Assembly: GCF_000340375.1 (NCBI RefSeq)
Contig: NZ_KB446650.1
Coordinates: 20,163-82,071, forward strand
DNA from: Eggerthia catenaformis OT 569 = DSM 20559
GTDB taxonomy: Bacteria > Bacillota_I > Bacilli_A > Erysipelotrichales > Coprobacillaceae
Direction: 5' to 3'
DNA length: 61,909 nucleotides
Below the pieces are notes generated by a model. It made no database searches. It saw only the letters and a program-made list of their open reading frames with translations, and was not told the DNA's origin. Below are positions 42,893-58,889 of the stretch, piece by piece. Within the stretch, counting starts at the first letter, position 1. Each line of letters starts with the position of its first letter. The translations under genes were made by a program, and so were the position numbers.

Positions 42893-43374
42893 TCAATGAA
42901 GAAATAGCAAGAAAAACGCTGAATATGGAAGTAAGAGCTGCTAAAGTAACAGGAAAGCTAATTCTGAACTTATTAAAGAAACTGATGAAAGAAGCAGAAA
43001 AGCTTGGAGGACTTGAAAAACTTGTAAATAGCAACGGAAATGAAGTAAAGCTAAAAGATATGGTAAAAAAAGGACAGCTTGAAGAAATTCCGGTTGAAGA
43101 AACGGAGCTGAAAGAACTGAAAAAAGAGCTAAATAGATACGGTGTTAAGTTTTCGGTGATAAAAGATAAGGAAACGGGTAAATTCTCAGTATTTTTCCAA
43201 GCCAAAGATATGAAAGTAATGGACAAAGCATTTAAGCACGCTCTTTCCGAATCAGAAAAGAAAACGGAAAGAAAGGAGTCCATTCATAAGAATATTGAAA
43301 AGTTCAAGGAAATGGCAAAGAACTCTGTTTCTAAGGATAAAGTTAAGAATAAACAGAAGGAGCAGAGCCTATGA
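42889..43374 (+). CDS. PcfB-family conjugation protein (DUF3801)
   Basis: 161 residues, TTG start at 42889 after CGGAGG, overlapping the ATPase gene. The protein is rich in Lys/Glu and contains LKELKKELNRYGVKFSVIKD, then FSVFFQAKDMKVMDKAFK, typical of PcfB/DUF3801. PcfB links the relaxosome to the VirD4-type coupling protein encoded just downstream. Confidence 0.85.
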   Translation: MINEEIARKTLNMEVRAAKVTGKLILNLLKKLMKEAEKLGGLEKLVNSNGNEVKLKDMVKKGQLEEIPVEETELKELKKELNRYGVKFSVIKDKETGKFSVFFQAKDMKVMDKAFKHALSESEKKTERKESIHKNIEKFKEMAKNSVSKDKVKNKQKEQSL

Positions 43375-44354
43375 TAGATAAGATATTAAAGGACATCAAA
43401 GGCTTATTTAAGGTGCAAGATAAGGTAAAGTTTCTAAAGCAGAACATTCCCTATCTTGCATTTTTCTATATAGGTAATATCTTTTCACATCATGTAAGAG
43501 CCTATATAGGTGGCGATATTATTGACAAAATTTTTCAAGGGATATTAGAGATTAATACGATGAGCTTTCTTCCAAGCCTTCATCCTACGGATATTATAAT
43601 GGGCGTGGTAGTAGCTGTTTTAATCAAAATTATCGTATATACCAAAGGGAAAAATGCTAAAAAGTTTAGACAGGGGAAAGAGTATGGCTCAGCAAGATGG
43701 GGAACGAAAAAAGATATAGAGCCATATATGGATGAAAAGTTTCAAAATAATATTTTGCTTACTCAAACTGAGCGATTAACAATGAATGGTAGACCATCTA
43801 ATCCTAAGTATGCAAGAAATAAGAATGTTCTTGTCATCGGTGGATCAGGAAGTGGAAAAACGAGATTTTATGTAAAACCGAATCTTATGCAGATGCACTC
43901 GTCATATTGTGTAACCGATCCTAAAGGAACGATAGTCCTTGAGTGCGGTAAGATGCTTGAAGATAACGGATATGAGATAAAAATCTTAAATACAATTAAC
44001 TTCAAAAAGAGCATGAAGTACAATCCATTCGCTTATCTCAGAAGTGAAAAAGATATACTCAAATTAGTACAGACAATCATCGCAAACACCAAGGGAGAGG
44101 GCGAAAAAGCAGGTGAAGATTTTTGGGTCAAAGCTGAAAAGCTCTACTATACAGCCCTTATCGGCTACATCTTCTATGAAGCTCCAAAAGAAGAAAAGAA
44201 CTTTGCAACACTTCTCGATATGATAGACGCTTCAGAAGTTAGAGAAGATGATGAAACCTATATGAATCCGATAGACAGACTCTTTGAAGCACTGGAAAGG
44301 AAAGAGCCTACACACTTTGCAGTGAAGCAATATAAAAAATACAAATTGGCTGCT

Positions 44355-44357
44355 GGA
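44355..44357. other. Left attachment core (GGA) of the nested element
   Basis: GGA ends the upstream host homology and recurs at 61757-61759. The split coupling-protein gene fixes the junction to these bases. TnpX/TndX-type recombinases cross over at a GA dinucleotide. Confidence 0.9.
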
Positions 44358-44361
44358 GTAA

Positions 44362-44367
44362 TAGAAT
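44362..44367 (+). promoter_or_regulatory. Left half of the circle-junction promoter (-10 TAGAAT)
   Basis: TAGAAT is four bases inside the left end. In the integrated state the position 17 bases upstream is ATACAA (44339-44344), a poor -35. In the circular form the right-end TTGACA is placed exactly 17 bases upstream, so the promoter for tnpX exists only after excision. Confidence 0.8.
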
Positions 44368-44429
44368 TAAGGAGAACACTTAATCACTATTTTAGTGAAA
44401 TATGTACTTCTTAATTCTTTTTTTATTGA

Positions 44430-46283
<1,854 letters not shown>

Positions 46284-46316: not shown

Positions 46317-46350
46317 GTTAGTTGACATTAACTAACAAGAGGAGTATAAT
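46317..46350 (+). promoter_or_regulatory. Promoter of the tetR-ECF-MATE operon with overlapping operator
   Basis: A perfect inverted repeat, GTTAGTT-N6-AACTAAC (46317-46336), covers the -35 box TTGACA (46322-46327). TATAAT follows at 46345-46350, exactly 17 bases downstream. A regulator bound to the palindrome would exclude polymerase. A small hairpin CGACA-GTAG-TGTCG with a T run lies at the expected transcript start (46357-46376). Confidence 0.88.
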
Positions 46351-46403: not shown

Positions 46404-46994
46404 TTGAAAGAAGAAAAACAAAAAGTTGGACAAATTAGAAAAAAAGAGATTCGAGAAGCTGCAAAGAAATGCTTTCTAAATAAAGGGTTTCAACTTACAA
46501 CAATGGAAGATGTTATCACAGAGGTAGGAATGAGTAGAGGGGGTGTTTATCATCATTATGCAAGTACAAATGAAATGCTTAAAGACTTAATGCTTGATGG
46601 TAATGATTATAGAAACAACTTGATAAATGAGTATTTAAAAAACAATCGAGGAAAAGATAAATATCAGCAAATGGGTGATATTTTGGTTGATAAGTCGCTG
46701 GCTGATACAGAATTGATGAGATTGTATACACTCCTTTTACAAGCAAAAAAATATAATCAGGATTTGGAAAAATTGTATCAAGAATTGAAACTTAATACGA
46801 CTAATGAGCTAAGTTTAATCGCCAAGCAGCTTGGAATTAAGGCGGATATATTTGGTGACGGTTTTTTAGTGAATTATATCAATGGATTGATATTAAGTTC
46901 TGAAGTTCTCTGTGCAAGAAATTCTTTTTCACAACATAAAAAATACATAAAAGAAACAATGGTAAATTACATTGTTGATATTGACAAGAGATAG
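46404..46994 (+). CDS. TetR-family transcriptional regulator
   Basis: 196 residues, TTG start after an AGAGG site. The N-terminal helix-turn-helix reads REAAKKCFLNKGFQLTTMED then VGMSRGGVYHHYASTNEM, standard for TetR. The C-terminal ligand domain is unlike any I recognise. It is the first gene after the palindromic promoter, so autoregulation is likely, and a related palindrome precedes the hydrolase operon at 51906. Downstream genes code for transport proteins, as is common for TetR repressors that sense an exported compound. Confidence 0.92.
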   Translation: MKEEKQKVGQIRKKEIREAAKKCFLNKGFQLTTMEDVITEVGMSRGGVYHHYASTNEMLKDLMLDGNDYRNNLINEYLKNNRGKDKYQQMGDILVDKSLADTELMRLYTLLLQAKKYNQDLEKLYQELKLNTTNELSLIAKQLGIKADIFGDGFLVNYINGLILSSEVLCARNSFSQHKKYIKETMVNYIVDIDKR

Positions 46995-47005
46995 GGAGGT
47001 TTAAA

Positions 47006-47593
47006 ATGAGTAAACGATTAGAAGTAAAGGATTTAATCAATATAGGATTATTTTCCGTATTAGGTTTTGTATTTATGATGATAGGATCATTTTTAGCAAT
47101 GGTTCCAGTTTTAATGCCGGTTGTTCCATTGGCACAAGGTATTTTGGTAGGACCGGTAAATATGTTGTATTCTACTAAAATTAAGAAAAGAGGAATGGTA
47201 TTTATTCAATCATTACTTATTGCATTAGTATATGTTGCTATGGGACATGGACCTTGGGCATTATTAACTGCTGTTATTGCAGGTGTTATTGCTGAAGTTA
47301 TTTTGAAATCAGGAGAATATACGGATGTTAATAAGGCAAGATTAGCATTTTCTATTGCTCCACTTTGCACAATAGGAAATTGGTTGCCAATTTTTATATC
47401 AAGAAATGAATATGTCAAGCAGATGTTAGAGCAAGGATATAATCAAGAATTTATTGATAAGATGCTTAGTGTAATGCCGAATTGGATTATTGTCGTAATG
47501 GCAATAGGTGGAATTATAGGAGCATATATTGGTTGTAGTATAGGAATGGCTTTCCTGAAAAAACATTTTAAAAAGGCTGGTATGGAAAAATAA
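47006..47593 (+). CDS. ECF transporter S component, MptD family
   Basis: 195 residues with about five membrane helices. It starts KRLEVKDLINIGLFSVLGF and contains AMVPVLMPVVPLAQGILVGP, then GHGPWALLTAVIAG, matching the MptD-type S components. S components bind the substrate inside the membrane; this one's ligand is unknown. It is 11 bases after tetR and directly upstream of the T and A components. Confidence 0.85.
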   Translation: MSKRLEVKDLINIGLFSVLGFVFMMIGSFLAMVPVLMPVVPLAQGILVGPVNMLYSTKIKKRGMVFIQSLLIALVYVAMGHGPWALLTAVIAGVIAEVILKSGEYTDVNKARLAFSIAPLCTIGNWLPIFISRNEYVKQMLEQGYNQEFIDKMLSVMPNWIIVVMAIGGIIGAYIGCSIGMAFLKKHFKKAGMEK

Positions 47594-47613
47594 GGATTCA
47601 TAAGGAGTTAAGG

Positions 47614-48315
47614 ATGACAATCAAACTTGATTTTCGTACAAAACTTTTTATGACAATAGTTCTTTCATATGTGATGGTTTTGGGCAATATTCAAGTAAAG
47701 TATTTCTTGCAAGCCCTTATAATATCCGTAATTCCGATAGTGCTTTTAATAAATACAAAACATACAAGAGTAGCTATTATTGGGATGGCTACTCTTGTGT
47801 TCGTTTATGGTGCTGATAGATTTTTAATGAAATTAGAATACAGTCCCTTGGTAGCGATTTTACTGATATTAGTAATGGTTGTTAAGAAAATACTTCCCGC
47901 ATTTTTAATGGGGAAATATACCATACTCACATCAAATGTAGGGGAAAGTATTTATTCATTGAAAAAAATGAAATGTCCCGATGAAATAGCAATACCATTG
48001 ACTGTGATGGTTCGTTTCTTTTATGCCGCAAGGATTGATTATAGCCAGATAAAAAAAGCCATGCGTTTGAGAGGACTAACGCTTAAAAAGTTAATAAAAA
48101 ATCCAATTCTATTATTTGAATATAGATTAGTGCCACTATTGATGTGTTTGTCTAAGACGGCAGATGATTTAACAGTATCCGCAATGACAAAAGGGTTAGC
48201 TGTTAATCAAAAGCGAACAAGTATTAGTGAATCTCGCATTGGTGGCATTGATTGCATATTTTTTGTGATAATGGTATGGGCAATCTATTTATATATAAGG
48301 GGTAAGTATGCTTAG
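47614..48315 (+). CDS. ECF transporter T component (CbiQ/EcfT type)
   Basis: 233 residues: MTIKLDFRTKLFMTIVLSYV, several membrane helices, and the two coupling motifs near the cytoplasmic helices, AMRLRGLTLKK and DLTVSAMTKGLA. Such T components join the S component to the ATPases. It overlaps the ATPase gene by 8 bases. Confidence 0.88.
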   Translation: MTIKLDFRTKLFMTIVLSYVMVLGNIQVKYFLQALIISVIPIVLLINTKHTRVAIIGMATLVFVYGADRFLMKLEYSPLVAILLILVMVVKKILPAFLMGKYTILTSNVGESIYSLKKMKCPDEIAIPLTVMVRFFYAARIDYSQIKKAMRLRGLTLKKLIKNPILLFEYRLVPLLMCLSKTADDLTVSAMTKGLAVNQKRTSISESRIGGIDCIFFVIMVWAIYLYIRGKYA

Positions 48316-49705
48316 TTTACAAAATTTAGTATTAAAGTTTGATGGAGAAAGCATATTAGAAAATATAAATCTAAATTTCAAACCCGGAGAGGTAACTGTT
48401 ATAACGGGACACTCAGGTACGGGGAAAAGTAGTTTGTTAAAAGTAATAAACGGCATTATTCCCGAATATGATTGTGGAGATGTAAAAGGAGATGTTTTAT
48501 ACAAGGACAAATCTTTATTAGGGATGAGTATATTAGAACGATCCAAGTTTATATCTACAGTGTTTCAAAATCCTAAAACACAATTTTATTGTATCAATTC
48601 TACAGATGAATTAGCTTTTCAATTAGAAAATAGGTGTATAGAAAGAAATTTAATTTTAGATAAAATACACTATTATTCAGATGTTTTAGGTAGTAAAGAT
48701 TTGTTGGACAAGAATATTTTTGAACTATCCGGTGGAGAAAAGCAGCTAATTGCTATAACTGCCAGTGGAATTTCAGAAAATGAAATTATTCTTTTAGATG
48801 AACCGTCCTCATCTTTGGATTATGAATCAATTAAGAACTTAAAAAGAGCTATTATTGAGCTAAAAAAAAGAAATAAAATCATAATCCTTGTCGAGCATAG
48901 ATTATTTTATTTGAAAGACATTGTAGACAAGCTGTGTGTAATAGAAAACAAAACTTTTAAAGAATACACGAAAGAATATTTTAGTGATGATTTTTTTGAA
49001 AGAGTTTCAGAAAAACATAATTTGAGAAATTTTAATGAAATTTTCAAGAGTGATTTCTTAAATAGACAATATGAAAAAGTAGATATGTTACAAAAAAATA
49101 CTCCATCAAACTTTGCTAATAGGTCAATAACATGTCTACATTTCAAAAAAACATATGATAAGAATACAATTTTTGATTTTAGTGTTTCTTTTAATACCGG
49201 GATAAATTTCATTATTGGACAAAACGGTGTTGGGAAAAGTACTTTTATCAATTTACTTATGGGAACTATGAAAGGCAAGGGAGAAGTTTTTTATAAGGGA
49301 GAAAAGCTCAAAAAACGGTACGAGAATATCTTTGCAGTCATGCAAGATGTTAATTATCAACTTTTCACAGAATCTGTATGGCAGGAACTTGGAACAGTTA
49401 CAAAACAGGATGATTTGAAAAATGAAGCCTTAAGAAAGGTACATTTATTTAATAAAAAAGAAATGCACCCAAGTTCGTTATCGGGTGGAGAAAAACAGAG
49501 ATTGTTGCTTGCTATGTCTATGGTAAGTCGAAAACCAATCATAGTGTTTGATGAGCCAACGAGTGGACTTTGCAAAATGCAAATGGATATTTTGATTGGA
49601 TTTTTAAACCAAATGGTAGAGCAAGGAAAAACTATTATTATAATCACGCATGATTTTGAATTTATAAAACAGTGCGATGGTGCAATATATGAATTTACAA
49701 AATAA
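48308..49705 (+). CDS. ECF transporter duplicated ATPase
   Basis: 465 residues with two ABC domains in one chain. Domain 1 has GHSGTGKSSLLKVINGI, LSGGEKQLIAITA and EIILLDEPSSSLD. Domain 2 has GQNGVGKSTFINLLMG, LSGGEKQRLLLA and IIVFDEPTSG. All motors of an ECF importer are therefore supplied without EcfA1/A2 genes. The domain pair and the adjacent S and T genes make the unit self-contained. Confidence 0.92.
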   Translation: MLSLQNLVLKFDGESILENINLNFKPGEVTVITGHSGTGKSSLLKVINGIIPEYDCGDVKGDVLYKDKSLLGMSILERSKFISTVFQNPKTQFYCINSTDELAFQLENRCIERNLILDKIHYYSDVLGSKDLLDKNIFELSGGEKQLIAITASGISENEIILLDEPSSSLDYESIKNLKRAIIELKKRNKIIILVEHRLFYLKDIVDKLCVIENKTFKEYTKEYFSDDFFERVSEKHNLRNFNEIFKSDFLNRQYEKVDMLQKNTPSNFANRSITCLHFKKTYDKNTIFDFSVSFNTGINFIIGQNGVGKSTFINLLMGTMKGKGEVFYKGEKLKKRYENIFAVMQDVNYQLFTESVWQELGTVTKQDDLKNEALRKVHLFNKKEMHPSSLSGGEKQRLLLAMSMVSRKPIIVFDEPTSGLCKMQMDILIGFLNQMVEQGKTIIIITHDFEFIKQCDGAIYEFTK

Positions 49706-49729
49706 ATATAAGTAAAGGAGAGCAATACG

Positions 49730-51085
49730 ATGAAAGAAGATATGAAAACACAACTTTTAACAAAAAGTCCTAAAGACTTGTTGTTTCAATTAGCTATTCC
49801 GGGAATTATAGGAATGGTTGTTATAGGACTTTATCCATTTATGGATGGAATATTTGCTGGGTGGATTATAGGGGATTATGCTATGTCTGCCATTAGTATA
49901 TCAATGTCTTTAACAATAATAAATGGTGGTATATCAGCACTTATTGGAGTTGGTAGTGCGTCAATATTATCAAGGGCTATTGGAAAGGGAGATAAAGAAA
50001 CAACGGATAAAATATTTGGAAATTTTTGTTATTGGGTAATTTTATTCTCTATAGTAATCACCGTATTAGGCTTGGTATTTGCACCTAATTTTCTTGACTT
50101 GGTAGGAGCAAAAGGGAATATTAAAGAACTGGGAGTTAGATATTTAAGAGTAGTTTTCTTTGGTTCAATATTTGTGAATTTTGCTCAAGCAGGTAATATG
50201 ACAATGCGTGGTGAAGGTGCATTGAAGCAATCTATGATGATTATGGGAGTAGGTGCTTTATTAAATATTATTTTAGATCCTATTTTTATGAAGTTAATGG
50301 GAGAGTATGCAATTGAGGGGGCAGCTATTGCAACTGTAATATCTCAAATTGTACAGGCGATATTAACATTTCACTACTTTTCAAAGAAAAGTGCTTTTGT
50401 TGGTATCCATAAAATTCAAAAGAGCAAGGCAATTTACAGTGAAATGTTTAGTATAGGAAGTTCGGCTATGATGATGCAAATTTTATTTGCAGTACAACAA
50501 ACATTTTTGTTCAAACAGGCTTTCGCTTATGGTGGAGATAATTGGGGAATTCTAATGTCTGCCACAATGAGACTTTATATGTTCTCATTTATTCCATTGT
50601 GGGGAATGAGTCAAGGTTTACAGCCTGTTATAGGAGCTAATTTTGGAGCAAAACAATATCAAAGAGTAAAAGATACTATGAAGATTTTCATGTATGGGGC
50701 AACAATACTTGCTGCTATTTCTTGGATACCATCCATGTTTTTCTCTGAAAAATTATTGTCATTGTTTAATGTGAGAAGTGAAATAATTGAAGCTGGAGTT
50801 ATGAACTTTAAATTGTTCTACTCTACTTTCATCTTGTATGGAATTATGATTATGACTCTTACATTTTTCCAATCTATTGGAGATGGGAAAAAAGCGAGCA
50901 TGATTGTAATGCTTAGACAACTGATTTTATTTATTCCGGCGATATTGCTATTGCCAAAGGTATTTGGAGGATTAGCAGTTTGGTGGGCTGAACCTATTGT
51001 AGATTTTAGTATGATTTTGCTCGGCTTGTTTTTTATGCTTAGCAGAATTAGAAAAATGGGAAAAGAAGAAGCGATAAATTGTTAA
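49730..51085 (+). CDS. MATE-family efflux transporter
   Basis: 451 residues, twelve predicted helices. It begins DMKTQLLTKSPKDLLFQLAI, then GMVVIGLYPFMDGIFAG and SALIGVGSASILSRAIGKGD, which is typical of DinF/NorM-type MATE exporters. It is the last gene of the TetR operon, ahead of a terminator. It would export a small molecule with sodium or proton flow; the ligand is unknown. An AAAGGAGAG site precedes the ATG. Confidence 0.92.
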   Translation: MKEDMKTQLLTKSPKDLLFQLAIPGIIGMVVIGLYPFMDGIFAGWIIGDYAMSAISISMSLTIINGGISALIGVGSASILSRAIGKGDKETTDKIFGNFCYWVILFSIVITVLGLVFAPNFLDLVGAKGNIKELGVRYLRVVFFGSIFVNFAQAGNMTMRGEGALKQSMMIMGVGALLNIILDPIFMKLMGEYAIEGAAIATVISQIVQAILTFHYFSKKSAFVGIHKIQKSKAIYSEMFSIGSSAMMMQILFAVQQTFLFKQAFAYGGDNWGILMSATMRLYMFSFIPLWGMSQGLQPVIGANFGAKQYQRVKDTMKIFMYGATILAAISWIPSMFFSEKLLSLFNVRSEIIEAGVMNFKLFYSTFILYGIMIMTLTFFQSIGDGKKASMIVMLRQLILFIPAILLLPKVFGGLAVWWAEPIVDFSMILLGLFFMLSRIRKMGKEEAINC

Positions 51086-51171
51086 GTATCTTATTATCCA
51101 AAGGTGAAAATAAACTATTAGAAAGGTTTGATATATGAATATTAGTTAGATGTAAGAAATGGGGGAGTAAG

Positions 51172-51264
51172 ATGAAAAATCTTTTTCATATAGAAGAAAG
51201 AAATAACAAAAAAATCTTCTCGCTTTATAGTTTCTTATTATCTCAAGCAACTAAATATATCTAA
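51172..51264 (+). CDS. 30-residue ORF after the MATE gene
   Basis: It encodes MKNLFHIEERNNKKIFSLYS and then FLLSQATKYI, after GGGGGAG. It lies between the MATE stop and the operon terminator. It may be the start of a lost gene or a genuine small peptide. The length gives no statistical support. Confidence 0.35.
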   Translation: MKNLFHIEERNNKKIFSLYSFLLSQATKYI

Positions 51265-51289
51265 GGAAAAGATAGATTCATTTCTTTTT

Positions 51290-51330
51290 GGAGGACTTTT
51301 TACGCCAAAGTGTAGAAGTCCTCCTTTTTT
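51290..51330 (+). terminator. Terminator of the TetR-ECF-MATE operon
   Basis: GGAGGACTT and AAGTCCTCC form a 9-base-pair stem with a long loop, followed by six T. Confidence 0.88.
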
Positions 51331-51374
51331 ATTCTCAAAAACAAAACAGAGAACTTAAAAAGGAGGATAACACG

Positions 51375-51791
51375 ATGGATAAGAAAGAATATTACCTTTA
51401 TGTAAAAGGCAAATCCGTACTTGTAAGTGAAAAAGTCTACAAAGCCTACTGGAAGATAACAGAGCATGAAAAGTATCTCCAAAGAAAAGATTGGAAGCAT
51501 AATGTTATGTCATTTTCAGCACTGGATCATGACGGACATTTTGTAGATAACATCATAGATGAAAAAATAGACTTAGAAAAAATTGTAGAAGTAAAAATGC
51601 AAATTGAAGAACTTCATAAAGCATTAAATACTCTCACAAAAGAAGAACGAGAGTTAATGGAAGCCATCTTCTACAAAGAAGAAAGTCTAAGGTCAATCAG
51701 CAGAAGAGAGAAAGTTACACATCAAGCAATCAGCGGGAGGAGGGATAGGATTTTAGAAAAACTGAGAAAGATTTTAGAAGATAAAATCTAA
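51375..51791 (+). CDS. Sigma-70 region-4-like regulator of mobile elements
   Basis: 138 residues from the ATG at 51375 (AAAAGGAGG upstream; the frame to 51288 overlaps the terminator). It starts KKEYYLYVKGKSVLVSEKVY and ends with a helix-turn-helix, SLRSISRREKVTHQAISGRR. Such small sigma-like proteins are frequent in conjugative and mobilizable elements of Bacillota. The target promoter is unknown. A terminator follows 10 bases later. Confidence 0.8.
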   Translation: MDKKEYYLYVKGKSVLVSEKVYKAYWKITEHEKYLQRKDWKHNVMSFSALDHDGHFVDNIIDEKIDLEKIVEVKMQIEELHKALNTLTKEERELMEAIFYKEESLRSISRREKVTHQAISGRRDRILEKLRKILEDKI

Positions 51792-51800
51792 AAAAATTTG

Positions 51801-51836
51801 GAAAGGTTAAGTATCAAAAAAGGTGCTTAACCTTTC
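51801..51836 (+). terminator. Terminator after the sigma-like gene
   Basis: GAAAGGTTAAG/CTTAACCTTTC, an 11-base-pair stem, followed by TTTG. Confidence 0.8.
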
Positions 51837-51905
51837 TTTGTAAAATACTGTTATGTAACACAAAAAACCGATATAGAAAAAATGGTGTGAAAATGATAAA
51901 ATATT

Positions 51906-51925
51906 ATTAGTTAATATAGACTAAC
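51906..51925 (+). promoter_or_regulatory. Second TetR-type operator, upstream of the hydrolase operon
   Basis: ATTAGTT-N6-GACTAAC has the same 7-6-7 layout as the palindrome at 46317 and differs from it at one position per arm. It lies 23 bases before the ATG at 51948, beside AT-rich -10-like sequence (TAAAAT/TATTAT at 51897-51907). Binding by the same TetR protein is inferred. Confidence 0.65.
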
Positions 51926-51947
51926 TCATGCTTGTGAGGTGTCCAAA

Positions 51948-52694
51948 ATGGAGTATATTGATATAAATAAAGACAAGAAAAGAATGGTTTTGCTCATACA
52001 TCCAATGCTTGCTTCTGCTGAGGGAATGAAAAAGTTAATTGCCGATAACATTGGAAATGAGTATAGATACATTATTCCAAATTTGTCTGCTCATGGTAGA
52101 TTGATTGATAAAAAGTATTTATCTGCAAGACAAGAAAGTGAAAATTTACATAATTATCTTAAAGAGAATGACATTAGAGAAATTTCTTTAGCCTTTGGAG
52201 CATCAATAGGCGGTGTAGTGTTACTAGAATTGTTAAAATACAAGGATATAAAGATAGTTAAAGCCTTATTTGAGGGCTGTAGTTTATGTCAAAATGCGAG
52301 TGTTTTAGAGTTTATCATAAGAAATATTGTTCTATATGAACGAAAAAAAGCTATTAAAAATAGTGACTCAGCTAATAGAAAAATTATAAGCATATATGGA
52401 GAAACAATGGGACGAATGATGGCTGAAAATCTAATCAGAATAGATAAACAAAGCATTAAAAATATCTGCCATGATTGTGCATTTGTAGATCTTCCCAAGT
52501 TATCAGAAGCAGAACAAAAGAGGTGCATATTCTGTTATGGATCTAAAGAAGTTAATTTAAAATATGCAAAGAGAGTTATTTCAAAAGAATATCCATATGC
52601 AGCGTTAAGAATATGGAAGGGACAAAACCATTGTACAAAGATAACAACGAATGTAGAAGGGTATTGCAAAATGATAAAAGCTGAGATTGATTAA
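51948..52694 (+). CDS. Alpha/beta hydrolase, first gene of the cargo operon
   Basis: About 248 residues from the ATG at 51948, preceded by GAGGTG; a GTG nine bases earlier is possible. The fold signs are VLLIHPMLASAEGMKKLI, the nucleophile elbow AFGASIGGVVLL (GxSxG) and the C-terminal His in WKGQNHCTKITT. It resembles the hydrolase at 53372 in overall layout. The substrate is unknown. Confidence 0.82.
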   Translation: MEYIDINKDKKRMVLLIHPMLASAEGMKKLIADNIGNEYRYIIPNLSAHGRLIDKKYLSARQESENLHNYLKENDIREISLAFGASIGGVVLLELLKYKDIKIVKALFEGCSLCQNASVLEFIIRNIVLYERKKAIKNSDSANRKIISIYGETMGRMMAENLIRIDKQSIKNICHDCAFVDLPKLSEAEQKRCIFCYGSKEVNLKYAKRVISKEYPYAALRIWKGQNHCTKITTNVEGYCKMIKAEID

Positions 52695-52723
52695 AACATA
52701 TTGTTGAAAAGAGGGTGTTAGCA

Positions 52724-53341
52724 GTGAATGATAAAAGCAATAAAAAGTTTTGGAATAAATTCGCCAAGCTGTACGCTCCTTTTATGAAGAAGGATAAAGG
52801 AGTTTATGATAATGTTTGTGAGTATATTCGTCCTTACTTGAATAGAAATATGAACGTACTTGAACTTGCTTGCGGTTCAGGTCAGTTATCATTTAATCTT
52901 TCAAAATATGCTAAAAATTGGATTGGGACAGATTTTTCGGAACAGATGATTTTAGAAGCAAGGAAGCGTGGAGAAAACGAAAACCTTACCTTTGAGGTAG
53001 CTGACGCAACCTCATTATCTTTTTCTGATGGTGAATTTAATTGCGTTGTAATTGCTAATGCACTTCATATTATGCCGGAGCCGGATGAGGCAATGAGAGA
53101 AATATACAGAGTATTAAAACCTAATGGCATTTTGTCTGCTCCTACTTTTCTATGGAAAGAAGGGACCCAAAGTAAATTCAAAAAATGGATAATGTCCGTT
53201 GTGGGATTTAAGATGTATCAAGAATGGAATAAAAAACAATTTAAAGATTTTATTGAGAAGCATGGATTTTCAGTAGTTGAAATGAATTTGATACATGGAG
53301 GGCTTGCACCCATCGGCGTTATGATTGCTTATAAAAAGTAA
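52724..53341 (+). CDS. Class I SAM-dependent methyltransferase
   Basis: About 205 residues from the GTG at 52724 after GAGGGTG. The SAM motifs are NVLELACGSGQLSFNLS (motif I), WIGTDFSEQMIL (motif II) and CVVIANALHIMPEPDEAMRE. This is the UbiE/Coq5-like fold used for small-molecule methylation. It is 29 bases downstream of the first hydrolase in the same operon. Confidence 0.88.
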   Translation: MNDKSNKKFWNKFAKLYAPFMKKDKGVYDNVCEYIRPYLNRNMNVLELACGSGQLSFNLSKYAKNWIGTDFSEQMILEARKRGENENLTFEVADATSLSFSDGEFNCVVIANALHIMPEPDEAMREIYRVLKPNGILSAPTFLWKEGTQSKFKKWIMSVVGFKMYQEWNKKQFKDFIEKHGFSVVEMNLIHGGLAPIGVMIAYKK

Positions 53342-53371
53342 TATTAAAATTGGGATTTTGGAGGAGAGTTA

Positions 53372-54139
53372 GTGAACATACATGAGTTTGGAGCTGATAA
53401 AAATAAAATAATTGTGTTGATTCATCCTTCATTAGTCATGTGGGACTATTTTGAATACATTTTATCTATACTTAAAGAAGAGTATCATATTATTGTTCCT
53501 GCACTTCCCGGATATGATGAGGAAAATCCAAACGAAAATTTTACAAGTGTAGAAGAAATTGCAGATAATTTATTAGGATGGCTGAAAGAACATAAAATTG
53601 AGAAAGTTGATCTTTTGTATGGTTGCTCTATGGGCGGTTCTATCGCTTTAAAAATGTTCTCCAATCACGGAATTAAAATAAGGAACATTATTTGCGATGG
53701 AGCAATAACACCATATCAGCTTCCTTGGATTGTTACAAGAATGATTGCCATAAGAGATTTTCTTATGATTTCTATAGGTAAAATTGGAGGACTAAAGCTT
53801 CTTGAAAAATCATTTTCTACAGATGAATACAGCGAAGAGGAATTGAAGTATGTTGCTAAAGTCCTTAATTTTATTAGTTATAAAACGATATGGAGAACAT
53901 TTGAATCTTGCAACAACTATGTTATGCCAAAGAACGTGTCAGAACATAGCGGTCGTATTCAATATTGGTATGGTGATAAAGAGTCTAAAGCCCGTGCATG
54001 GGATATCAAATATATGAAAACTTATTTTCCAAATACTGAGTTTATTAAATTTGAAAACATGGGTCATGGCAGCATGGCAAGTCTTTATCCTGTGAAAATG
54101 GCTAATCAATTCAGAGATTTAATGGAAGTTAAGAAATAA
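53372..54139 (+). CDS. Alpha/beta hydrolase, second of the cargo operon
   Basis: 255 residues, GTG start after GGAGGAG. It shows IVLIHPSLVMWDYFEYIL, LPGYDEENP, the elbow LLYGCSMGGSIALK (GxSxG) and the His in FENMGHGSMASLYP. It is distinct in detail from its neighbours, so not a recent duplicate. Role unknown. Confidence 0.85.
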   Translation: MNIHEFGADKNKIIVLIHPSLVMWDYFEYILSILKEEYHIIVPALPGYDEENPNENFTSVEEIADNLLGWLKEHKIEKVDLLYGCSMGGSIALKMFSNHGIKIRNIICDGAITPYQLPWIVTRMIAIRDFLMISIGKIGGLKLLEKSFSTDEYSEEELKYVAKVLNFISYKTIWRTFESCNNYVMPKNVSEHSGRIQYWYGDKESKARAWDIKYMKTYFPNTEFIKFENMGHGSMASLYPVKMANQFRDLMEVKK

Positions 54140-54177
54140 AATAATTTGTCATTTTTGGAATTAAGGAGGTATGCATT

Positions 54178-55116
54178 GTGAGTGTTAAATATAAATTAAC
54201 GGAATTTTTATTTCGTCATACTGTAAAACCTATGATGAAAAAAGCAATAAAAAATCCGGATGAATATTTTGCTAAACAAGAAAAGAAACAGAAATCTAAA
54301 CTCCCTCTTGAAAAACTTCATAAATCTTATGATTTTGAAGAAAAGTGTACAAGCGGAACTTTGTATTATGCCGTCAAACCAGAAGGTAAAGTGGCAAATA
54401 GGCTTGTGTTATATTTCTTTGGTGGAGGATATACCATTCCGGGAGATTCCGGTGATTTTGAGTTTGCCCAAGATATGGCTAATCAAAGTCAGGCTGAAGT
54501 GTGGCTTGTATGGTATCCACTTTTTCCAAAAGCAACCGGCTTGCAAATTATTGAAGCAGGTCTAAACGTTTATAGCGAGGCACTTAAGGTGTTTAATGCA
54601 GATGATATTATATTTTTTGGTTTATCAAGTGGAGCAAGCCTTGCACAAAATATATGTTTGCATATTCTTGAAAACGACATGAGATTATCAATGCCAAAAA
54701 GATTGATTATGCACTCGCCAACCTTTCGTATTCCTCCGACTAAAGAACAGATGAAAGAGATGGAGAGACTTGATAAGTTTGATTGCATTATTCCGGCTTG
54801 CTACATGAAAGAACAAGATCAAGTAATGCAAAGAATAAATTTAAATAATGTGGAATATATGAAATCGCCAATTGAGTACTCATGGAAAGGGCTACCTGAC
54901 ATGTATATCATTTATGGTTCTTATGAAGTGTTGATAGCAGAGCTGCCGGAGGCAAAAGAAAAAGCTAAAATGGATGGCGTGGTTATGAAAACATATATAG
55001 GAGAGAGAATGATGCATACTTGGGCGGCGGCAGGATTTTTACCTGAGGCAAAGGAAGTAAGAAGCAACATATATGCCGTAATACGAGGAGATAAAGATGA
55101 TAGCTTTCTCTTGTAA
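54178..55116 (+). CDS. Alpha/beta hydrolase / esterase of the HSL type
   Basis: 312 residues, GTG start after AAGGAGG. Oxyanion-hole region VLYFFGGGYTIPGD (a variant of HGGG, with Phe in place of His), the nucleophile elbow FFGLSSGASLAQNI, an Asp region near DMYIIYGSYEVLIAE, and the His in RMMHTWAAAGFLPE. The HSL-like layout suggests ester or lactone hydrolysis. It is the third hydrolase in a row. Confidence 0.82.
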   Translation: MSVKYKLTEFLFRHTVKPMMKKAIKNPDEYFAKQEKKQKSKLPLEKLHKSYDFEEKCTSGTLYYAVKPEGKVANRLVLYFFGGGYTIPGDSGDFEFAQDMANQSQAEVWLVWYPLFPKATGLQIIEAGLNVYSEALKVFNADDIIFFGLSSGASLAQNICLHILENDMRLSMPKRLIMHSPTFRIPPTKEQMKEMERLDKFDCIIPACYMKEQDQVMQRINLNNVEYMKSPIEYSWKGLPDMYIIYGSYEVLIAELPEAKEKAKMDGVVMKTYIGERMMHTWAAAGFLPEAKEVRSNIYAVIRGDKDDSFLL

Positions 55117-55171
55117 TATTCTACAGGTAGCTTTCAGAAGAAAAGTGGATATTGTGGGGTGATTGATAATT

Positions 55172-55669
55172 ATGTATATGACGATACTGCTTGCAGTTAT
55201 TATGATGATTGGATTGTTCTTATTGCTGTGGGCAGGAGTTGGATTTATTCAAAACAAAGACTTCTTTTCTTCGTGTCCTAAAGAAGTGTTTGATGTTATT
55301 GAGCAAAAGGAAAAACGCTTTCGTGGTCAGAGTTTAGTTGGATGGATATTAGCTATTATTGCAATACTATTCATGGGGAGTTCAATTATCGTTGGTGCAG
55401 TGGATGGTGTTCAAAATAACTTTACTTACATTCAGTTTTTCATTAGATTTCTGATGATACTTCTTTTGCTGAAAGCCTTTGATATTGTATTTTTTGATTG
55501 GATACTTTTGTGCAATCGAGGTTTTAGTTTTTTTGAACATTATTATCCGGAAGTGGTAGATAAGCTTAGTCCTAAACTCTTTGGATATAACAAAAAGGAA
55601 CACATTATTCAAGTGTTATTTATGATTATCGGATCGTTAGTCATTGCATGGATATGTACATTATTTTAA
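55172..55669 (+). CDS. Integral membrane protein of the cargo operon
   Basis: About 165 residues with four hydrophobic helices (near residues 5-25, 55-80, 90-115 and 145-165). A polar loop before the second helix reads CPKEVFDVIEQKEKRFRGQS. The start could also be TTG at 55163. I do not recognise the family. Its place between an esterase and a methyltransferase suggests a membrane partner of that pathway. Confidence 0.65.
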   Translation: MYMTILLAVIMMIGLFLLLWAGVGFIQNKDFFSSCPKEVFDVIEQKEKRFRGQSLVGWILAIIAILFMGSSIIVGAVDGVQNNFTYIQFFIRFLMILLLLKAFDIVFFDWILLCNRGFSFFEHYYPEVVDKLSPKLFGYNKKEHIIQVLFMIIGSLVIAWICTLF

Positions 55670-55703
55670 AAACTAAATTAAAATTAGTAGGAGGTGTTTA
55701 TAC

Positions 55704-56522
55704 TTGAAAGAAATAGAAATGCAAGAAAAAATAAAACCCATTTTGAATGGTGCTGCGGAAACGATGCTTCAGAGTTTTTATGCAAGAGCACAATATTCCA
55801 AGAGCAAAAGACATAAATTTTATGATGCCAAAGCGGTGGAATTGGTTGAAAAAATTGATTACGATTTTACTGTCGCCACAAATGATTCCCTTATGAGTTA
55901 TGGCGTGATTGCAAGAACGCTTGTATTTGATGAACTGGTAAAAGAGTTTATTGACGAAAATCCAACCTGTACAGTCGTAAATATTGCTTGTGGACTTGAC
56001 ACGAGATTTTATCGAATGGATAACGGACAAATCACATGGTACAATGTGGATCTGCCTGAAACCATTGAAGTAAGAAATCAGATTTTTGCAGAATCCGGCA
56101 GAGTTTCAAACATCGGTATTTCAGCAACGAATTCGGCGTGGGCAAAAGAAATAAAAGCAGATGGGAACATTCTGTTTATCATTGAGGGATTGTCAATGTA
56201 CTTGACACGGGAAGACAACGCCCAAATGCTCCGAATTATTCGAGAGAATTTTGACAATGCGTATGTTCTTATGGAGTGCCTGTCAAAAAGGTGGGTAGCG
56301 AAAGAAAATGTTGAAAAGTCCATACAAAAAACCGGAGCAAAATTCATATTTGGAGCGGATTCCTTTGATGATATTACGGATATTGCAAGAGGTTTCCGTA
56401 GTGTAAAGGATGATGATATTACAAGGGGGATGTCTGCTTTATTTCCTGTGCTTAAGCTTATTAACTGGTTGCCGATTGCTCACAAACTATCACAGAAAAT
56501 ATTGATATTTGAGAAGGTGTGA
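55704..56522 (+). CDS. Class I SAM methyltransferase, leucine-carboxyl-methyltransferase-like (PF04072)
   Basis: 272 residues, TTG start with TAGGAGGTG upstream. It shows MLQSFYARAQYSKSKRHKFY, the SAM site CTVVNIACGLDTRFYRMDNG and WYNVDLPETIEVR, then FIIEGLSMYLT. This is the PF04072 pattern of O- or carboxyl-methyltransferases that act on small molecules. It is the last gene of the operon. It is unrelated to the first methyltransferase beyond the fold. Confidence 0.88.
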   Translation: MKEIEMQEKIKPILNGAAETMLQSFYARAQYSKSKRHKFYDAKAVELVEKIDYDFTVATNDSLMSYGVIARTLVFDELVKEFIDENPTCTVVNIACGLDTRFYRMDNGQITWYNVDLPETIEVRNQIFAESGRVSNIGISATNSAWAKEIKADGNILFIIEGLSMYLTREDNAQMLRIIRENFDNAYVLMECLSKRWVAKENVEKSIQKTGAKFIFGADSFDDITDIARGFRSVKDDDITRGMSALFPVLKLINWLPIAHKLSQKILIFEKV

Positions 56523-56613
56523 TGTTACCATCATGATTGTCATCAAGAAGTACACACTGCGATAGGCAAATCACAGCTTATATAACTAACAATTAAATAA
56601 CAACTAATATAAA

Positions 56614-56648
56614 AACAGTAAATTGAAAGGAACAGTTTACTGTTTTTT
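56614..56648 (+). terminator. Terminator of the hydrolase/methyltransferase operon
   Basis: AACAGTAAA/TTTACTGTT with about 13 bases between, followed by TTTT. It lies 90 bases past the last gene. Confidence 0.75.
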
Positions 56649-56680
56649 ATTTGAGAAAAATTGAAACGGAGGAATGAAAA

Positions 56681-57254: not shown

Positions 57255-58889
57255 GTGGCAGAAACATTTCACTTTAATATTTCCATGATAAGCAGAGGGA
57301 AAAGTAAATCGGCAGTTGCAAGTGCAGCATATATCTCTTGTGAGAAAATCAAAAATGAATGGGATGGAGAAGTTCATGACTATCATAATAAAAAAGGACT
57401 TTTACATTCAGAAATCTTCTTGCCGGAGAATGTCCCTATAGCATTAAAAGATAGAACTACTTTATGGAATAGCGTTGAACTAAATGAGAAAGCAAGCAAC
57501 GCACAGCTTGCAAGAAACTTTATTATAGCCTTACCGAAAGAATTATCTTTTGAAGAAAACAAGAAACTCATTACCGACTTTATACAGGAAAATTTTGTAT
57601 CAAAAGGAATGATAGCAGACCTTGCCATTCATGATGAGAGTGATGAAGAAAATAACAATATCCATGCACATATTATGACTACCCTTAGACCAATCAATGA
57701 AAAAGGAGAGTGGCAAGCAAAGTCAAAAAAAGAATATATTCTTGATAAAAACGGAGAAAAGATAAAACTAAAAAGCGGAAACTACAGAACAAGAAAAGTA
57801 GAACTGACAGACTGGAACAACAAAGAAAATGCGGAGAAATGGAGAGAACATTTTGCAAGCCTTTGTAATCAGTATTTAGAAAAAAATCATCAGGAAAAGA
57901 GAGTGGATCATCGCTCCTACAAAAGGCAAGGGATAGAAGAAATTCCAACCATTCATTTAGGAGCAAGTGCCAGTGCCTTAGAGAAAAAAGGAATCGAAAC
58001 CGACAAAGGAAATATCAACCGAGAAATCAAAAAGCATAATTCCTTAGTAAAAGCCATCAAGAACAAGATAAAAGAAATCACCTCTTGGATAGACTCTTTA
58101 CTTGGAAATCTGCAAGCAAAATACGATGAGTATAAACAGACCAAGAAAGATGAACTGGAGAACAAAGCAGAACTCTTTAACCTTTATGAATATATTTCTA
58201 TCTACAACGAAATACAGGGAGAAAAAACAAAAAATCTATCCTACTATGGACAGATAAAAAAGGGAAATGCAGACCTAAAGAGATTTGTAAAAGCAATCTA
58301 CTATTTGAAAGATAATCATCTTCAAACCATAGCAGACTTACAAGAAAAAGTCTTTGAACTGGCAAAGCAAAGTAAAAAGATAAGTGGTGATATTCAAGAA
58401 AAGACACAAAGAATAAAAGACCTAAACCAATGTGTAAGTTGCATAGACGCTATCAGAGAAAATAAAGAAATTTATCAGGAATATAAAAATAAAACACTAT
58501 TTAAAGACAGCTTTTATAATTCTCATAAAAAGGAAATAGACAAGTACCTAAGAGCAAGAAAGACCATAGAAAAATTCACCGGGACATCAGCTATAAAATT
58601 AAGTGATTGGCAAAAAGAAATATCAAGCCTTGAAAATCAGATACAAGAGCTAACCGAATATAAAGCTAAAGTACAAGATGAATTTAAGCAGATAGACCAT
58701 ATCAAATATGCAGTAAAGATTGTCAATGATGAGTATGGAATAGATTTATCCATAGAGATAGACAAGGCAATTAAGAGAGGAGATAAACCAAGTGTAATTG
58801 CACAACTGAAAAAATTTCAAGAGCAAGAGGAAAGAAAGGAGCAGTACAAACAAAAGGCAAAAGAAAAATATACAAAACAAGAAAGATGA
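57255..58889 (+). CDS. MobA/MobL relaxase (MobQ type)
   Basis: 544 residues, GTG start after AAAGGAG. The relaxase domain starts ETFHFNISMISRGKSKSAVA and has the histidine metal motif ENNNIHAHIMTTLRPINE. The C-terminal half is a long charged coiled coil. This protein nicks the oriT just upstream and pilots the strand. The element has no conjugation channel genes, so it depends on a helper, which may be the ICE it has invaded. Confidence 0.92.
   Translation: MAETFHFNISMISRGKSKSAVASAAYISCEKIKNEWDGEVHDYHNKKGLLHSEIFLPENVPIALKDRTTLWNSVELNEKASNAQLARNFIIALPKELSFEENKKLITDFIQENFVSKGMIADLAIHDESDEENNNIHAHIMTTLRPINEKGEWQAKSKKEYILDKNGEKIKLKSGNYRTRKVELTDWNNKENAEKWREHFASLCNQYLEKNHQEKRVDHRSYKRQGIEEIPTIHLGASASALEKKGIETDKGNINREIKKHNSLVKAIKNKIKEITSWIDSLLGNLQAKYDEYKQTKKDELENKAELFNLYEYISIYNEIQGEKTKNLSYYGQIKKGNADLKRFVKAIYYLKDNHLQTIADLQEKVFELAKQSKKISGDIQEKTQRIKDLNQCVSCIDAIRENKEIYQEYKNKTLFKDSFYNSHKKEIDKYLRARKTIEKFTGTSAIKLSDWQKEISSLENQIQELTEYKAKVQDEFKQIDHIKYAVKIVNDEYGIDLSIEIDKAIKRGDKPSVIAQLKKFQEQEERKEQYKQKAKEKYTKQER

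Follow-up and report, generated by a model that had tools for sequence, protein, structure and literature searches.

Among described systems, the closest to the genes treated here is eqbHIJKL, part of the equibactin locus on ICESe2 of Streptococcus equi (statements on this and other published systems refer to the available excerpts of the papers). There, eqbHIJ are required for equibactin-dependent 55Fe uptake, their deletion stopping most iron accumulation with secretion intact, and a part in efflux is considered possible for eqbKL (PMC3672683). EqbH-J are annotated as the S component, the T component and the duplicated ATPase of an energy-coupling factor (ECF) transporter (PMC8754150). We analysed a related run of five genes, encoding a TetR regulator, an MptD-type ECF transporter and a multidrug and toxic compound extrusion (MATE) exporter, in 61,909 nucleotides of Eggerthia catenaformis OT 569 = DSM 20559 (contig NZ_KB446650.1, positions 20,163 to 82,071; hereafter the window, with which the contig ends).

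Like the equibactin locus (PMC3672683), the window carries an S gene of family TIGR02185, a T gene and a duplicated ATPase gene in a row, as mobile cargo. It has neither the ATP-binding cassette (ABC) pair eqbKL nor the biosynthesis genes, a TetR replaces the DtxR-like EqbA, a MATE gene is added, and its S is about 30% identical to the EqbH counterpart. Furthermore, the importer role of eqbHIJ was shown by deletion in S. equi (PMC3672683). The element 023_CTn1 of Clostridioides difficile clade 3 is also an integrative and conjugative element whose cargo includes an ECF T component, a membrane protein, ABC genes and a thiazolinyl imide reductase, but it lists an AraC regulator and no MATE is seen in the excerpts (PMC6814731). 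LhaSTA is likewise a dedicated Gram-positive ECF importer for iron, for which the excerpts describe no MATE or ABC pair (PMC7299338). In methanobactin operons the MATE MbnM is proposed as exporter of the metallophore and is paired with an importer; these differ in handling a copper peptide, in being Gram-negative and in using a TonB importer (PMC3621798). Searches of the open-access literature on MptD, MATE and ECF together yielded nothing on the operon described here. The Bifidobacterium sifABCDE operon was considered as the same system and rejected, its permeases being of FtsX type.

Gene content and close copies of the ECF-MATE run

The run lies at 46404-51085 and comprises:

46404-46994, + strand, TetR family regulator; TTG start, PF00440 43.3 bits, ends 11 bases before S
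47006-47593, + strand, MptD-type ECF S component; PF09605 206.7 bits, TIGR02185 137.3 bits
47614-48315, + strand, ECF T component (EcfT/CbiQ-like); CbiQ PF02361 33.2 bits (cut-off 25), RGL and KGL motifs
48308-49705, + strand, fused double ATPase of the ECF module (AA in gene orders below); two ABC_tran stretches
49730-51085, + strand, MATE exporter of an MptD-associated subfamily; PF01554 133.1 bits (cut-off 24.9), two stretches

These five co-directional genes are tightly packed, with intergenic gaps of 11, 20, -8 and 24 bases from TetR to MATE, and the sole terminator-like hairpin on the + strand, a weak one at 47762-47800, falls within the T gene. An earlier note on this DNA had proposed that a whole ECF importer, self-contained, stands next to a MATE under one TetR, with the MATE gene downstream in the same transcript. 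All five genes score above their Pfam cut-offs and S, T and both ATPase sites are present, bearing out the first part; the gaps and shared strand are consistent with a single transcript from TetR to MATE.

The S component clears the TIGR02185 cut-off of 76.45 with model positions 1-188 of 188 covered (NCBIfam name, MptD-family ECF S component). Its AlphaFold2 model has a mean predicted local distance difference test score of 95.7, and the best match by VIA is the S component 5edl (Z 10.7, 4.0 A over 167 residues), others being ThiT (4tkr 8.2, 3rlb 8.0), 4hzu_S (7.9) and PanT (7.9). Since unrelated helical rows reach Z 8.1 on this scale and Foldseek of the model against the PDB gave nothing significant, fold and sequence family are weighed jointly; counted together, they assign the predicted structure to the S-component fold. 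The Walker A (34 and 304), signature (140 and 391) and Walker B (160 and 411) motifs of both ATPase sites are intact. S, T and two ATPase domains are thus encoded together, as in dedicated (group I-like) ECF transporters, and we classify the set from its sequences as a dedicated MptD-type ECF importer. ECF S components with known ligands serve mostly vitamins or trace metals. The idea, also put forward in the earlier note, that the ECF might be an exporter-like relative is not supported, as the fold of S, the T component and the two ATPase sites are all those of an ordinary ECF system and the related EqbHIJ is reported to be an importer (PMC3672683). The host genome contains six S genes of the MptD family. 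The same DNA match to the ATPase gene occurs at two places in it (G000:C2:50478 and G000:C1:264327), which suggests a duplicated part of the MptD operon.

The operon is horizontally spread mobile cargo. Scanning one genome for each species turned up eleven loci. S is 92-98% identical in ten of them, which belong to Criibacterium, Anaerococcus, Streptococcus pseudoporcinus, Peptostreptococcus, Oribacterium, 'Fusobacterium naviforme', Ezakiella, [Eubacterium] infirmum and two Clostridiales strains. These close copies usually lie within the same mobile backbone, and among the host genome and 20 relatives the whole cassette was present in the host only. TetR is present in all ten. The order TetR-S-T-AA-MATE is found in seven of the ten, and TetR-S-T-AA-ABC-ABC-MATE in the other three (L024, L025 and L031). 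All five genes show dN/dS of 0.06-0.14 against L028, that is, purifying selection (ratios are given where computable; TetR against L031 was too diverged). Because the arrangement is kept in seven close loci, recurs in three more with two ABC genes inserted and is under purifying selection, it is not due to chance. No near DNA match to the cassette was found in plasmids. At the protein level, four plasmid records matched at about 27%, the one examined being a Corynebacterium plasmid with S-T-AA-ABC-ABC and no listed MATE, and two phage records at about 34%.

Siderophore clusters, the MptD family and the MATE subfamily

The richest context was found in Ezakiella coagulans (L244/L245). There, genes for a DtxR-like regulator, a thioesterase, a phosphopantetheinyl transferase, an AMP ligase, two nonribosomal peptide synthetases (NRPS 1865 and NRPS 1443) and a thiazoline reductase (TIGR01761 280.5 bits, cut-off 188.8) are followed on the same strand by the cassette. 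From its gene content, the biosynthesis cluster is assigned to the yersiniabactin/equibactin type. The transport part is the same cassette, identity to the window being 93% for S, 85% for T, 77% for AA and 92% for MATE; unlike the window, it follows biosynthesis genes and keeps an ABC pair, placed before MATE, and its TetR is only 58% identical.

Three more clusters combine thiazoline reductase, NRPS and MptD transport genes, in G465 (L206/L178), G041 (L247) and G047 (L139), the first two with this MATE subfamily at the end. The L139 run (G047:C1:344245) reads T-S-ABC-ABC, then a short-chain dehydrogenase/reductase-like gene, an AMP-binding/peptidyl carrier protein and the thiazoline reductase, with no fused ATPase in the run, and looks like another siderophore-like cluster. 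Of 13 genomes searched, most of them selected for S genes, TIGR01761 exceeded its cut-off in four (G046, G041, G047 and G465), each time with an MptD S in the same cluster. In an unselected set, thiazoline reductase matches were found in 2/247 Streptococcus genomes (G465 and G569; one split and below cut-off), both with an MptD S in the cluster, while none of 395 same-class genomes had one above cut-off. G569, probably S. equi, has the gene order published for eqbA-N, as far as the excerpts give it, and its EqbH counterpart matches TIGR02185 with 123.4 bits.

To place the importer, we surveyed the family: 107 S genes in fetched stretches formed 59 groups at 80% identity. The survey omitted L040 (whose stretch yielded no S gene), partial TIGR02185 matches in G080 and G199 and a weak S match at G046:C1:272449; 40 of 89 Streptococcus S rows other than those of G042 were fetched. 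S was accompanied by T and ATPase in 47 of the 59 groups. Among these dedicated groups, one or two ABC half-transporters stood in the run in 44 and a MATE in nine, a count that includes the L167/L168 MATE, of another subfamily (24% identity at best). The window operon therefore stands apart from most dedicated MptD importers in being without the usual YbtPQ-like ABC pair. In the longer cassette, ABC1 and ABC2 have as best half-size solved matches YbtP (6p6i_A, E 5.8e-80) and YbtQ (6p6i_B, E 1.2e-77), respectively. Other neighbours were a FecCD/binding-protein set after S-T-AA in L124 and a DtxR-like gene in the following position in L154, and all five tested neighbours of about 325 residues were AraC regulators. 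AraC-type regulators control yersiniabactin. In Streptococcus, TIGR02185 S genes (L175-L198) nearly all have no adjoining T or ATPase, L178 being the exception; such lone S genes may share a common ECF module.

The closest solved relative of the window MATE is BH2163 (205 bits). Its scores are far below the equivalog cut-offs of multidrug MATEs (MepA, 118.7 of 850 bits; FepA, 134.8 of 900 bits), and it reaches 145.8 against 147.4 for the general model TIGR00797. Among 60 MATE rows in nine genomes, 23 of the 25 with at least 44% identity had an S gene no more than 12 kb away, compared with 1 of the 35 others; these rows are non-independent, and presence of S was the reason for choosing the genomes. 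Of the two exceptions, one is beside T-AA-ABC-ABC cut by a contig end and the other beside an ABC pair, so that all 25 adjoin MptD/ABC genes. MATEs at E <= 1e-75 were found in 2/98 Streptococcus and 2/395 same-class genomes (best four candidates per genome scored in the latter), all in those same neighbourhoods. The association is thus one-sided: MATE is rare from the importer side and the importer near-constant from the MATE side. The earlier note held that its proposal would fail if the two transporters occurred apart in most genomes; this is the case when counted from the importer (9/47) and not when counted from MATE (23/25).

The subfamily is dedicated to these neighbourhoods and occurs in several gene orders. 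In 23 locus pairs, drawn from 54 loci, MATE was 86-99% identical while S was 16-33%, ATPase 33-38% and ABC 34-40% identical (loci with incomplete T/fused ATPase/two-ABC sets or two S genes were dropped; MATE pieces under 380 aa, including the L178 MATE cut by an insertion sequence, were excluded here and from the Mantel test below). By these sequence comparisons MATE is a swappable module exchanged among importer operons, and this module status suggests a broad or shared substrate. MATE remnants (pieces 56-65% identical, some with stops) were observed at G044:C1:176806-177141 and G043:C13:37379; as these adjoin MptD operons, MATE has also been lost again.

Proposed function and rival explanations

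We consider it fairly probable that the operon is the mobile transport half of an equibactin/yersiniabactin-type metallophore system, without the biosynthesis genes and without the ABC pair, because the Ezakiella cassette follows a biosynthesis cluster, EqbH-J have the same architecture and S shares its family with the EqbH counterpart. On the outer side of the membrane, S would bind a metal-loaded thiazoline siderophore produced by a neighbour, and T and the fused ATPase would power its release from S into the cell. The MATE, driven by ions, would export the metal-free chelator or a related by-product; in other systems this outward transport may fall to the ABC pair or to a different exporter. 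MbnM is a precedent for a MATE proposed to export a metallophore (PMC3621798). TetR would repress the whole run until released by the ligand. The ligand class, the metal, the direction and substrate of MATE and the sensing by TetR are what we infer in this scheme. The 'resistance operon' label of the earlier note is misleading, since the best-linked context is siderophore biosynthesis. The co-occurrence of import and export which it found unusual is indeed puzzling for a resistance operon, and it is expected for a siderophore system. Its suggestion that the exporter removes a toxic product survives in changed form, as secretion or recycling of the metal-free chelator. More tentatively, Gram-positive anaerobes might share a two-way siderophore cassette, combining the MptD ECF importer with a MATE subfamily specialised in thiazoline metallophore export. 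The MATE would be a common exporter plugged into very different importer operons, and non-producers would take up, use and return a shared chelator; we hold this wider proposal to be possible rather than probable.

Several results weigh against a metallophore transport half. Next to the cassette, no biosynthesis gene was seen either in the window or in nine of the ten close copies (flanks of up to 7 kb, some contigs short). In the window, neither the ten proteins of 46404-55113 nor the flanking genes that were checked include an NRPS, a salicylate-type AMP ligase or a thiazoline reductase, and the host genome has no TIGR01761 match. The regulator is a TetR and not an iron regulator of the DtxR type. 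Within the fetched stretches of the 47 dedicated S groups, NRPS-like matches were found in only 4, DtxR-like in 6 and FecCD-like in 3, counts made with no background control and including candidate NRPS-like matches of L150/L162. The YbtP/YbtQ matches of the ABC pair are ahead of other exporters by small margins, and no NCBIfam family was above cut-off for the pair among the matches listed. Finally, MATE divergence does not track that of S (Pearson r 0.33, 91 pairs), whereas S tracks T (0.93) and AA (0.89). From this lack of tracking, MATE is not tuned to a single ligand. A Mantel test on 16 loci gave r 0.42 (p 0.0002), a correlation that we read as carried mainly by near-identical cassettes, with no tuning in the wider comparison.

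The independent movement of MATE, together with the mobile-cargo status of the operon, could also be explained by a vitamin or micronutrient importer joined by a multidrug pump that hitchhikes in the element and shares TetR by accident, and the known ligands of S components would suit this (partly PMC7299338, excerpts). We nevertheless judge it unlikely, as the MATE subfamily was seen only beside MptD/ABC genes and never free in the 98 Streptococcus, 395 same-class and carrier genomes, occurs there in several gene orders, and the S relatives lie in siderophore clusters. A heme or porphyrin system, in which the ECF imports heme as does LhaSTA of Staphylococcus lugdunensis, a proven ECF heme importer according to the excerpts (PMC7299338), and MATE expels the excess heme or porphyrin, would fit an anaerobic, host-associated life that may need both uptake and relief. 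None of the genes beside the operon was recognised as a heme gene, however, and the cassette copy with the richest context is in a thiazoline-siderophore cluster, which leaves this explanation improbable. TetR control, a MATE and an ABC pair also resemble a resistance set. The cassette could thus be a counter-measure in which MATE, with the ABC pair where present, expels a toxic natural product of neighbours, import serving for sensing or the ECF being idle. Consistently, L242 has a MATE (54%) with TetR and an ABC pair but no ECF genes, and the siderophore importer YbtPQ is described as lowering antimicrobial susceptibility in Klebsiella (PMC7876324, excerpts). We regard this as very unlikely: S, T and ATPase are under selection about as strong as MATE (dN/dS 0.06-0.14), so import is in use, and MATE scores far below the MepA and FepA cut-offs.

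Should a metallophore transport half be correct, a large family whose sole name is 'MptD family putative ECF transporter S component' would gain a likely class of ligand, a mobile vehicle would be at hand for iron piracy by anaerobes of the mouth and gut, and a MATE would join the few exporters proposed for metallophores. Carriers could then use chelators made by others. It would also warn that TetR and MATE cargo is not automatically drug resistance.

Transcription signals and mobile backbone

Further features of the window are:

43371-44414, + strand, VirD4/TraG-type coupling gene with the C-terminal part missing; PF02534 positions 40-232 of 468, ends just before the recombinase gene
44454-46283, + strand, large serine recombinase of the carrying element; PF00239, PF07508, PF13408, PF14287
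46320-46372, + strand, predicted promoter and likely operator; TTGACA-17-TATAAT, -35 within the palindrome GTTAGTTGACATTAACTAAC, CGACA-n4-TGTCG hairpin at the transcription start
49706-49729, + strand, junction where L024, L025 and L031 have the YbtPQ-like ABC pair instead
51288-51791, + strand, sigma-70-like gene of the mobile backbone; PF04545 24.4 bits, 3' of the cassette in 6/7 ABC-less copies
57255-58889, + strand, MobA/MobL relaxase of the mobile backbone; PF03389 310 bits

The promoter candidate at 46322-46350, just 5' of TetR, is a 12/12 sigma-70 match. When 11 copies are aligned, 10 retain the hairpin as well as the -35 and its flanking bases, and the spacer has diverged; L031 has a different sequence upstream of the cassette. 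The palindrome around the -35 is likely the operator. The 5' hairpin was considered as an attenuator and rejected, its folding energy being ordinary (z -1.30). Recent deletion of the ABC pair was also rejected: the ABC-less junction is common to the ~97% and ~83% clades and ABC-bearing copies are found in the near clade and L031, a distribution from which both forms look old and recombined.

The backbone comprises RepA_N, an IstB-like ATPase, DUF3801 and the VirD4-type gene 5' of the cassette, and the sigma-like gene, DUF3847 and the MobA/L relaxase 3' of it. The truncated VirD4 gene followed by the large serine recombinase is found in the same order in L023, L028 and L029. The window has an ABC pair of its own at 34-38 kb, which is chromosomal (beside rpsF, ssb, gdpP and dnaB) and unrelated to the operon. 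A block at 51846-56655 encodes alpha/beta hydrolases, methyltransferases and an esterase-like product; L023, L026 and L029 run straight past it, joining ~51845 directly to ~56656, and it is therefore read as an insertion into the carrying element.

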